Source of the DNA: Natronorubrum tibetense GA33
Lineage (GTDB): Archaea; Halobacteriota; Halobacteria; Halobacteriales; Natrialbaceae
Length of the DNA: 64,000 nucleotides
Assembly (NCBI RefSeq): GCF_000383975.1
Contig: NZ_KB913017.1
Location: 248,001-312,000 of the forward strand
Direction: 5' to 3'
Each line of letters opens with the position of its first letter. Positions within the stretch are counted from its first letter, which is position 1. The position numbers and the translations under genes are program-made. Below are positions 4,505 to 43,401 of this stretch, piece by piece. The notes beneath the pieces are model-generated. The model was given only the letters and a program-made list of their open reading frames with translations. It had not been told where the DNA came from and did not search any database.

Positions 4505-7500
4505 CTACCGGCTGAGGGCGACTGCGGCCCCGAACAGCACGAATCCGAGCACGACCGCGACGGCACCGACGACGGCGTCGCCGGCGAAGAGAAGTGTCCC
4601 GCCGGCGACGAGTCCGGCACCGCCACCACCGGCGGCCACCGGGATGCCGAGTTGCTGGACGGTACTCGAGTCGGATCGGCTCTCGTTCTCCGGTTGAGAC
4701 TGCTGTTGATTCCGTACCTCGTCCAAATCCGCACGGAGGGCTTCGATATCAGCGTCCTGGGTCTCCAACTCCGTCCCGTCGACGGCCGACTCGAGGTCCT
4801 CGATCTCTGCTGCGAGCGTGTCGAGTCGAGCGTCGTGGCTCTCGAGGTCGGTCGCGTGGCTCTCGAGTCGGTCCCCGTACTCGCTCGTCCGATCGTCGAG
4901 CAGTTCGGTACGGGCAGCGACCTCGTCGACTCGATCTTCCGCGTCGTCGATCTCGTCCGCGAGGCCCTCGATGCGGTCGGGGGCGTCGTCGAGCGCAGCG
5001 GTCTCCTCCCGCGTCGAGGTGATTTCGCGCTCGAGAGTTTCGATCGTCTTCTCGAGCGCCGCAACATCGTCTTCGGAGACGGACGTCTCCTCGAGCCTCG
5101 TCACGCGTTCGTCGACCGTAGCGACACGCTCGCCAAGGTCATCGACCGTCGTGTCGAAATTCCCGACCGTGTCGTCGAGGTCCCCGAGTTCGGCCTCGAC
5201 CGTCTCGGTAGTCGTTTCGACGCTCTCGAGTCGGTGCTCGACATCGGTGGAACGGCTGTCGACGGTCTCGAGATGCGACTCAAACTGATCCGTTTCGGCC
5301 GCCAACTCCGTCCGGAGATCGGCGACGGCATCCTCGAGGTCGTCCTCGAGCGCGTCGACGCGGTCTGTCAGTGTCGTCTCGACGTCCCCGAGTCGCGTTT
5401 CCACTTCCTCCACATCGGTCTCGAGCGTCCCGAGATCGCCGCCCACAGAATCGATCTCGGCAGTGAGCGATTCGACCGTCTCTCGCGTGTCGGTGAGCGA
5501 GTCGGACAGTGCTTCGACTGCGTCGTCGCTGACGGTCCCGCCGTCGAGTCGGTCGACGGCCGTCTCGAGCGCCTCGAGATCGTCTGCGACCGCCGTAATA
5601 TCGTTCGCAACCGCCTCGGTCGCGTCGCCGAGTTCACCCTCCAGATCGGCCATCGTTTCCTCGAGGCGTGACTCAAGCGTCGCTTCGAACGCCTCGACTT
5701 CGTCCGTGAGCTCCCCGACATCGCCGTCGATCGCCTCGAAATCGGCTGCGAGATCGTCGACCGTCGACTCGAGCGCCGTTCGGCCCTCGAGTTCGGCCAC
5801 CGTCTCCGAGACGGCCGTTATCGAGTCCCCGAGTTCGACGAGTTCCGCCTCGAGCGACGCGATTTCAGCTTCCACGTCGTCGACGCGGTCGCCGTCGGCT
5901 GCCGTCGAATCGATCTCGTCGATCGTCTCCCGAGCGTCCTCGAGTCGGCTCTCGAGATCCTCGGTGCGATCGGATACTGACTGCCGAACGTCGGCCACGT
6001 CGGTTTCGACCGATTCGATGTCGCCTTCGACAGCTTCGACGGTACGGTCGACGCGCTCGACGTCATCTTCGACCGTCTCGACCCGTTCGTCCATCGACTC
6101 GAGATCGTCCGTGACGGTTTTGACCTGATCGGCCGTCGACTCGAGATCGGTTTCGACCGACCCGACGCGGTCGTCCGTTTCGGCCAAGCGCTCGTCGACG
6201 CGCTCGAGCGTCGTCGCGGTCGCGTCGATCGCGTCGTCGAGTTCGGTGAGGCGGCCGTCGACGTTCTCGATCCGTTCGTCGACGGTCTCGAGTTCGGCAT
6301 CGACGGCGTCTATCTCGTCCGCGATCGTCGTTTCGACGGCGTCGATGGCGTTTTCGAGTCGCTCGCGTTCGTCGGCCGACCGCTCCGTCGCCTCGTCGAG
6401 CCGATCCGAGACGCCGGTGATCTCGACCGACTGCTCTTCGAGCCGCCCGGCGAGCCCTTTGGCTCGAGTCTCGAGTCGGTCGACGTCCTCGTCGACGCGC
6501 TCGAGCGCGTCGTCGAGTTTCGAGACGGTCTCCGTGACCGTCTCGAGGTCGGCTTCGGAGGGAGTTTCGGCGTCCAGCGCCTCCAGTTCGGACTCGAGCG
6601 CGTCCAGGTCCGTTCGCCGGTTCTCGAGTCGGTCGTCGAGCCGCTCCGTTCGATCGGTAATCGCCTCGAGATCGCCGGCGAGATCACCGATGCGGTCGTC
6701 GAGGGCCGCTCGTTCGTCCGCGGTGATTTCCTCGACCGACTCGAGGGTCGCTTCGACCGACTCGAGATCGTTCGTGAGATCCGTTTCGACCGACTCGAGG
6801 TCGTCCGTCAGTCCCGCTTCGACCGACTCGATATCCTCCGTCAGTCCCGTTTCGAGGGCGTCGAGATCCCCGTCCAGCCCCGTCTCGAGTGCGTCGAGGT
6901 CTCCCGTGATGTCCGCCTCGAGCGACTCGATATCGTCGACGAGCGTTGATTCCACTCCCTCGATATCGTCCTCGAGCGCGTCGAAGGCCGCCGACAGCCC
7001 GTCGAGTTCGTCCCGCAGGTTGCTTTCGAGTTCGTCGACCGTTCCCTCGCTCGCGTGCGTCTCGCTTTCGGCTTCGAGGTCCCGCAGGTCGTCGGCGAAC
7101 GCCTCGAGTCGCTCGTCGAGGTCCGCGACGGTCTCGGCGTCGGCCGCCCGCTCCTCGACGTAGTCGAGTTCCTCGAACGCGGACTCGAGATCGGTGCGGA
7201 CCGACTGTATCTCCTCGTCGCGGGTTGCGAGTCGGTCGAACAGTTGATCGATGGCGTCGTTCGACCGGTCGCGATCCGTCTCGGCCCCACTGCCGACCGC
7301 GTCGTCGAACGCGAGAGTCGTTCGGCTGCCCGCGCCACTCGCCTCGGCCGTGTCTATCGCGGGCTCGTCTCCGTCGGAGCCACCGCCGTCGGAACCGTTC
7401 TCCGACCACGTAACGTCCTCGTAGGCGTCGACGTCGTCCTCGGCGGCTGCGAGTGCCCCTCTGGCCGCACTCGAGGCGGGATCGTCGGCCAGACGGACCC

Positions 7501-22619: not shown

Positions 22620-22820
22620 CTGGGCAGTTCTTACGCGTGGAGCGTGCTAAGGCTGTGGTTTCGGTAAGGAGAGTGTCTCGAGAAGTCGGTATCGGCGGCC
22701 GGAGACAGTGGTCCCTGTTCCGGCGCTCGATTTCGGTCTGGGCGATCGACGGCTGTCGGAACGATCGACGGATGTTCGATCGCTCCGCCCTTTCAGTTTG
22801 CAGCGAAGATTCCGGTCGGG

Positions 22821-22888
22821 CGGGGATTTGAACCACGCCCGAGAACCTGCGCCTACGGCGCAGAACCTCGGTCTGATTCAAACCCCCG
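22821..22888. repeat. tRNA-adjacent palindromic hairpin element (copy 1)
   Basis: A 68-bp imperfect palindrome starting 40 bp beyond the tRNA-Thr 3' end. The outer arms CGGGGATTTGAA and TTCAAACCCCCG pair over 11 of 12 positions; then CCGAG/CTCGG, a symmetric AAC/AAC internal loop and a perfect CTGCGCC/GGCGCAG stem closed by TAC. The outer arm copies the T-arm end of the tRNA next to it. A second copy with the same core lies beside tRNA-Ser at 43184-43260. Seen directly: the structure and the second copy. Its role is unknown. The remaining 22620-22820 shows no gene. Confidence 0.6.
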
Positions 22889-22927
22889 CGCTCGTTGCTG
22901 ACGCTCACGAATGTGTTCGCGTCAGCA

Positions 22928-23001
22928 AGCCAGGGCGGGGATTTGAACCCCGGGAGTCTCGATTACAAGTCGAGTGCATGAACCACCCATGCTCCCCTGG
23001 C
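22928..23001 (-). tRNA. tRNA-Thr (anticodon TGT)
   Basis: A 74-nt cloverleaf on the minus strand: acceptor GCCAGGG pairs with CCCTGGC, a D-arm with GCAT/ATGC, anticodon stem CTCGA/TCGAG around loop CTTGTAA (anticodon TGT) and T-arm CGGGG-TTCAAAT-CCCCG. The discriminator base is T, as usual for archaeal tRNA-Thr. No intron is visible. CCA is not encoded. It lies just upstream, in its own direction, of the hairpin element at 22821-22888, and downstream of the GNAT gene start region on the same strand. Confidence 0.95.
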
Positions 23002-43183: not shown

Positions 43184-43260
43184 CGGTGGGGATGGGGTTG
43201 TGAACTACGCCCGAGAACCTGCGCAAAGCGCAGAACCTCAGTCTAGTTCAACTCCCACCG
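43184..43260. repeat. tRNA-adjacent palindromic hairpin element (copy 2)
   Basis: Same core as the element at 22821-22888: CTACGCCCGAGAACCTGCGC, a three-base loop (AAA here), then GCGCAGAACCTC and a T-arm-like right flank TTCAACTCCCACCG. Its left flank CGGTGGGGATGGG copies the 3' end of the neighbouring tRNA-Ser. It starts 57 bp beyond that tRNA's 3' end. The remaining part of the 385-bp space 42933-43317 has a perfect TTTCTGCAGAAA palindrome (42994-43005) upstream of the Tat gene and no gene. Confidence 0.6.
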
Positions 43261-43317
43261 TTTCGTTTTCCACTCGAGAGACTTCTCACTTCGTTCGTCG
43301 TACTCTCTCGCGAAAAA

Positions 43318-43401
43318 CGGTGGGGATGGGATTTGAACCCATGAGGCTTGTAGGCCATCTGCTCTCAAGGCAGGCGCGTTAGGCCGCTCTGCCACCCCAC
43401 C
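43318..43401 (-). tRNA. tRNA-Ser (anticodon TGA)
   Basis: An 84-nt class II tRNA on the minus strand: acceptor GGTGGGG pairs with CCCCACC, discriminator G; anticodon stem around CTTGAGA (anticodon TGA); a long variable arm (GGCCTACAAGCC) and T-arm ATGGG-TTCAAAT-CCCAT. The long variable arm and G73 are serine identity features. No intron; CCA not encoded. The closing pair of the anticodon stem is weak, which leaves a small uncertainty. Confidence 0.93.

Follow-up and report, generated by a model that had tools for sequence, protein, structure and literature searches.

Why should a palindrome next to a tRNA gene copy part of that tRNA, and why should the same palindrome core appear behind a second tRNA with arms that copy the second tRNA instead? 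The window, by which we mean the whole 64-kb stretch of DNA that was analysed (C1:248001-312000 of the 4.93-Mb genome, here G000), contains two tRNA genes, Thr-TGT and Ser-TGA, and each has the reported palindrome on its 3′ side in the tRNA sense. The features are as follows.

22928..23001, minus strand: tRNA-Thr(TGT), the anchor gene (ARAGORN; Rfam RF00005).
22895..22927, minus strand: H1 hairpin of the Thr unit, a stem with a tandem G-A motif (GCGAACA..TCGTGAGC) (inverted repeat, fold, motif).
22875..22889, minus strand: inverted arm of the Thr H2, GCGGGGGTTTGAATC, complementary to the T-loop and the 3′ strand of the T-stem of tRNA-Thr.
22839..22871, minus strand: core of the Thr H2, class a (CCGAGGTTCTGCGC..GCGCAGGTTCTCGG in the tRNA sense).
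22818..22834, minus strand: direct copy of the tRNA-Thr 3′ tail (GGTTCAAATCCCCGCCC) (direct repeat).
43318..43401, minus strand: tRNA-Ser(TGA), the anchor gene of the second unit (ARAGORN).
43264..43317, minus strand: H1 region of the Ser unit.
43245..43260, minus strand: H2 inverted arm of the Ser unit.
43211..43241, minus strand: H2 core of the Ser unit, class a.
43184..43205, minus strand: direct copy of the tRNA-Ser 3′ tail (GTTCACAACCCCATCCCCACCG, loop with one extra base).

The palindrome beside tRNA-Thr, and its likeness to that tRNA, are real: positions 22818-22837 and 22933-22952 (the end of tRNA-Thr) form a 20-nt direct repeat of 95% identity, and the RNA folding energy of 22815-22930 is -75.2 kcal/mol against -42.0 +/- 3.8 kcal/mol for shuffled sequences (z = -8.8), with 0 of 200 shuffles reaching the native stability. 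Read in the tRNA sense, the inverted arm (22889-22875) is followed by the core (22871-22839) and then by the tail copy (22834-22818). The initial annotation had described the outer stem as an inverted copy of the T-arm and acceptor end together; the T-loop and T-stem are indeed inverted, but the acceptor end is present in the direct copy alone. Its second claim, that the same core stands behind tRNA-Ser with an arm copying tRNA-Ser, is borne out by the Ser element (43184-43260), which gave an exact core match in a window scan allowing up to 3 mismatches (chance expectation 0.00) and has its own inverted arm and tail copy. The literal core pattern, with three bases in the middle, fits only the Ser copy; the Thr core has 5 bases between its GCGC arms. 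The H1 hairpin (22895-22927), which sits between the Thr palindrome and tRNA-Thr, is part of the same unit.

In the whole genome the class-a core is present in five copies, all on the 3′ side of tRNA genes (Thr-TGT, Ser-TGA, Val-TAC, Ser-CGA and Val-GAC), with the inner stem starting 64-106 nt behind the tRNA. The core pattern is found in 35 of 149 genomes of relatives and in 65 of the 391 genomes of a class-wide sample, the control pattern scoring 0 throughout. Genomes of named species yielded 73 stretches, nearly all from Halobacteria, and 69 of the 72 haloarchaeal matches (69 of 77 overall) lie within 600 nt behind a tRNA on the same strand, at a median distance of 65 nt and at 25 tRNA species, which ties the core to tRNA genes as had been proposed. 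Among the matches outside this group, five have no T-arm arms (a viral contig, a Streptococcaceae MAG, a Bifidobacterium and two Methylopila records) and three are haloarchaeal and do have such arms, two of these three being close to the edge of a locus. At the loci from the whole-genome search, 54 of 58 distinct core matches are tRNA-linked; the remaining four all carry T-arm arms, two of them separated from the tRNA by 12.6 kb and 20.3 kb and a third with no tRNA in the 19.9 kb of DNA obtained around it.

The Thr and Ser core is one class, class a, of several in a larger family that has a shared plan: the tRNA is followed by the H1 hairpin and then by H2, which comprises the inverted T-arm, the core and the direct copy of the tRNA 3′ tail. 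This H1-H2 order and the short spacing are kept at many tRNAs. When an own-tail copy is defined as 17 nt with at most 3 mismatches, 30-330 nt downstream of the tRNA, 23 of 44 filtered tRNAs of G000 (46 tRNA matches in total) have a copy downstream and 1 has one upstream, with about 2.5 expected from the tails of other tRNAs. The corresponding downstream counts are 23 of 35 tRNAs for the congener G001, 28 of 39 for G029 of the same family, and 7 of 30 and 1 of 13 for G110 and G106, which belong to other families. These four genomes hold 43, 46, 42 and 71 tRNA matches, respectively, so the samples do not cover every tRNA, least of all in G106; upstream copies number 0-1 in each of the five genomes. 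The 71 matches of G106 are well above the 42-46 of the other genomes.

A sample of 255 tRNA 3′ flanks, enriched for class a, gave 238 units, up to six of them in tandem. After duplicates and short pieces were dropped, 227 units remained, from 38 tRNA species; their median period is 127 nt and their length 82-191 nt (5th-95th percentile); by our regular expressions for core classes, 88 of the 227 fall in 'other'. The stems of the H2 core are conserved and asymmetrically interrupted. The tandem G-A motif of H1 is strand-specific (in the sense orientation in 106 of 227 units, on the opposite strand in 5) and shows a paired change from AC/GT to GC/GC, and it would suit a DNA-binding interpretation and an RNA one alike. 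An inner H1 hairpin like CGAGCACCGCGTAGCGTGTGCTCG is common to Ser, Gly and Asp units (L022, L024, L026, L078, L123 and L130), and the tRNA-Asn of G001 (L177) is followed by tandem units of a different, unclassified type about 211 nt long.

That the arms follow the neighbouring tRNA can be put in numbers. We compared 90 class-a H2 in ungapped register, leaving out gapped ones including those with a GTTCACA loop, with 500 label shuffles. The inverted pairing of arm and tail exceeds all 500 shuffles at tRNA positions 57, 59, 62, 63 and 64, so that the arms covary with the adjacent tRNA, as anticipated; there is no excess at position 65 (0.46; shuffle maximum 0.48) nor in the acceptor stem. At base 57 the arm agrees with the tRNA in 153 of 172 units (Fisher p = 7e-20). 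Read instead as the 5′ side, the arm agrees with the tRNA beyond the shuffles over positions 52-49 (at 49 only just), and a single excess stands apart at 45; an arm that copies the T-arm's 5′ side and one that complements its 3′ side cannot be told apart in this way. The inverted arm spans the T-loop and T-stem only, and tracking that stops at the T-stem boundary on both sides fits a site with a limited footprint, not free copying. In the units at Ser-TGA and Lys-TTT a 31-nt stretch of H1 is identical and the cores are almost alike, but the arm in each is that of its own tRNA.

With the core linked to tRNAs and the arms tracking them, the suggestion that the element arises or evolves with each tRNA is right in outline. 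Clustering of units by tRNA species was also considered: the nearest core from another genus is at the same tRNA species at a frequency of 0.125 vs 0.064 with shuffled labels (n = 16 units), which is weak, and for H1 the value of 0.312 vs 0.066 (shuffle maximum 0.333; n = 16) is suggestive. The best pairs of whole units from different tRNAs are about 89% identical, and none of the units cut out recurs in identical form at a different tRNA.

Comparison of congeners shows how the units come and go. They vary in number, class and presence, and gain and loss take place in whole blocks delimited by tRNA 3′-tail copies. At tRNA-Leu-CAA, G000 has an empty site where G001 has one class-a unit, the flank after the last tail copy being the same in both. 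At five other tRNAs (Arg-CCT, His, Val-TAC, Met-CAT and Gly-GCC) what the congeners share is displaced outward from the tRNA in the unit-richer genome, which implies growth at the tRNA end, and in the informative pairs the extra unit adjoins the tRNA. The insertions duplicate the tRNA 3′ end and leave the tRNA intact. At Val-TAC and Met-CAT an H1 common to the congeners is followed by an H2 of a different class, and H2 can thus be exchanged independently.

Full-size elements use the same place. In two cases such an element was seen between the tRNA and a displaced array, of 20.3 kb at tRNA-Arg and of 12.6 kb at tRNA-Phe, and a third is apparently present, where an integrative element has a tRNA-Val-type tail and the tRNA would lie beyond the stretch that was fetched (loci L266/L267, L268 and L269 for the three). 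Each of the three has a gene for a tyrosine integrase (Pfam Phage_integrase) at its array-side end, and the large elements duplicate the tRNA from about G53/GTTC on, as the units do. The ends that were inspected (three right, one left) contain neither H1 nor H2.

Whether selection acts on these hairpins as RNA can be judged from isolated mismatches in their stems. Acceptor stems of tRNAs in the same genomes have 26 G.T vs 0 A.C, compared with 18 G.T vs 17 A.C in H1 stems (Fisher p = 9e-6 against acceptor stems), 7 G.T vs 24 A.C in non-class-a cores with the arms excluded, and 29 G.T vs 39 A.C in the outer T-stem pairs. All H2 taken together have 100 G.T vs 65 A.C, a count that includes the fixed class-a GTT/GTT and the T opposite G53; a stricter first count on a small sample gave 6 G.T vs 4 A.C. 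The A.C excess in the non-class-a cores may come from fixed class motifs, and we do not take it as a sign that the bottom strand folds. The lack of a sense-strand G-U excess speaks against a sense RNA whose fold is under selection, and on the strength of the H1 and core counts we rejected the view of the units as ordinary structured RNAs. In an Rfam cmscan of five units only tRNA was above the cut-off, and RF00391 was absent up to E = 5. A mimic for tRNA-processing enzymes, as the initial annotation had offered, finds no support in these results: the T-loop is base-paired away in H2, there is no G-U excess, and the units vary between congeners.

A similar arrangement is found in a bacterium. 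The 178-bp repeat at tyrT/tyrV of E. coli, annotated in K-12 as the small RNA RttR, resembles the haloarchaeal units in that it stands behind a tRNA, carries a direct 19-nt copy of the tRNA-Tyr end (AATCCTTCCCCCACCACCA), and has an inverted T-stem arm, GGGGAAGGAT, preceding a hairpin core. Strain SK1144 has the exact empty site, where the first tRNA-Tyr is directly followed by TCTCAAGCATTACCT; in K-12, TCTCAAGCATTACCT stands after the inserted unit and a second copy of the tRNA-Tyr tail. The E. coli unit is present in 4680 of 5426 E. coli genomes, at 1-9 places per genome. The haloarchaeal units share this anatomy of tail-copy bounds, an inverted T-stem arm and exact insertion at the tRNA. The E. 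coli repeats differ in being seen in this analysis at tRNA-Tyr only, in near-identical tandem copies, and in having no H1 of the haloarchaeal type. The RtT RNA model (RF00391) found nothing in 21 haloarchaeal genomes, with a positive E. coli control, and the likeness is thus one of architecture and not of sequence.

The explanation that we favor, tentatively and with somewhat less than even confidence, is that the units are gene-less cassettes inserted at the tRNA T-loop by site-specific recombination, with H2 as a folded attC-like site. A unit, consisting of tail copy, H1 and H2, would enter at the T-loop from G53/T54 onward, and the tRNA would be kept intact by each insertion restoring a matching 3′ tail. 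H2 pairs the local T-loop and T-stem sequence around its core stems; the arms would match the tRNA because they are the recombination half-site, and H2 would recombine with the T-arm, which would take the role of attI. The geometry of insertion and the matching of the arms are shown by the data; the enzyme involved, the step through a folded strand and the origin of new units we infer. The candidate recombinase would act in trans, most likely being of the tyrosine type as on haloarchaeal tRNA-targeting elements, and would recognise the folded H2 DNA hairpin by analogy with IntI and folded attC; units of about 100 nt are too short to encode an integrase. In favor of insertion are the own-tail copies downstream of tRNAs, the same core at 25 tRNA species with little same-species clustering, the filled and empty sites, growth on the tRNA side, the integrase-bearing full-size elements that share the duplication, the limit of the arm, the absence of a wobble signature and the tyrT parallel. 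Against it are the inspected ends of large elements and the viral scans, in which neither H1/H2 nor a unit, respectively, was found, the lack of an identical unit at two tRNAs, and the variation of H2 behind a common H1, which plain cassettes do not predict. A double-stranded circle of 100-150 bp would be hard to form, which also counts against cassettes. Spread across tRNA species with the tRNA left intact is what insertion explains least, since a conservative exchange would swap the tRNA tail for that of the element and does not simply account for it.

Alternatively, the units could have arisen in place by replication slippage and template switching at quasi-palindromes, with local duplication of the tail, correction of the arms by fold-back, and spread of the cores by gene conversion. 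We consider this unlikely, although near-identical tandem units at Lys-TTT, Leu-TAG and Gly-GCC, the differing H2 behind a common H1, and the Ser and Lys units that share the H1 stretch with arms matched to their own tRNAs all speak for it. It does not account for one conserved core class at 25 tRNA species and in many genera, for internal mismatches (GTT/GTT, GA/GCG) that are conserved and left uncorrected, or for the arm match ending at the T-stem when the tail copy continues through the acceptor. Quite improbable, in our view, is that the units are attachment ends left behind by larger integrative elements, since lost, that used the tRNA as attB. Partial tRNA copies from the integration of large elements are documented (PMC9897764; PMC3119063), and integrase-bearing elements do use this site and push arrays outward; against scars stand the constant order of H1 and H2 and their close spacing at many tRNAs, and the lack of both hairpins in the large-element ends that were inspected. 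Least of all do we credit the reading of H1 and H2 as trailer hairpins of the tRNA transcript (a processing mimic, a terminator or, as in the RttR annotation, an sRNA), to which the K-12 annotation, the strand-specific G-A motif with its paired change and the tRNA sense of the counted core matches near tRNAs (same-strand tRNAs being those counted) lend some weight, as the mismatch ratios and the variable presence, number and class of units between congeners speak against it.

Insertion as we favor it has relatives among known systems. The attC sites of integrons are palindromic, with AAC/GTT outer boxes and unpaired spacers, and their cassettes, which normally carry a gene, are added polarly at an anchor site. 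The haloarchaeal units likewise insert polarly at one anchor and have in H2 a palindrome of this build; unlike integron cassettes they have hardly any cargo genes, are anchored at a tRNA gene and carry outer arms that track it. MITE, PATE and small mobile repeats are dispersed in the genome, as are REP elements, which are likewise short and gene-less, many with palindromes. The haloarchaeal units, unlike these, occur only in the 3′ flanks of tRNAs and match the tRNA beside them. The MITEs, PATEs and small mobile repeats of Haloquadratum resemble the units in being short and gene-less, many with palindromes (PMC3119063). With the tRNA-integrating elements that have tyrosine integrases, which are kilobases long and carry their own integrase (PMC8371274), the units share the target, the duplicated tRNA 3′ end and insertion beside the tRNA, and they differ in being gene-less and without an integrase of their own. 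We found no description of the haloarchaeal units in the open PMC literature, outside which most subscription papers lie.

We speculate further, and hold it rather doubtful, that there is a hitherto unrecognised class of mobile DNA common to both domains, in which the T-arms of archaeal and bacterial tRNAs act as attI-like anchor points for polar arrays of hairpins that resemble attC, mostly lack cargo and occasionally carry genes, and of which the E. coli RtT repeat would be one case. If insertion at the T-loop is true, tRNA genes would carry an ordered running record of tiny insertions, beyond serving as landing pads for large elements, and a textbook repeat of E. coli would gain an explanation. 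Given the pairs of filled and empty sites and the arms matched to the tRNA, the mechanism can be put directly to the test in genetically tractable haloarchaea and in E. coli K-12. For annotation, we point out that the partial tRNA copies described here do not mark large islands.

Candidate carriers of units were also sought and set aside. Two scans of viral contigs gave one core without T-arm arms, which we take to be chance; the best plasmid match lies on a Natronorubrum replicon of 827 kb that carries genes for ribosomal proteins, and phage records gave weak, non-haloarchaeal matches only.

The 238 units cut out are essentially gene-less, and there is one possible gene-bearing case. In Natrinema zhouii (NZ_CP059154; L109, ~6090-7325) a second Ser-TGA unit has about 1.2 kb between its inverted arm and its tail copy, and the insert contains a zinc-finger-like ORF and a frame like a cold-shock protein, both named by eye. 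It is possible that this second unit is a gene-bearing cassette.
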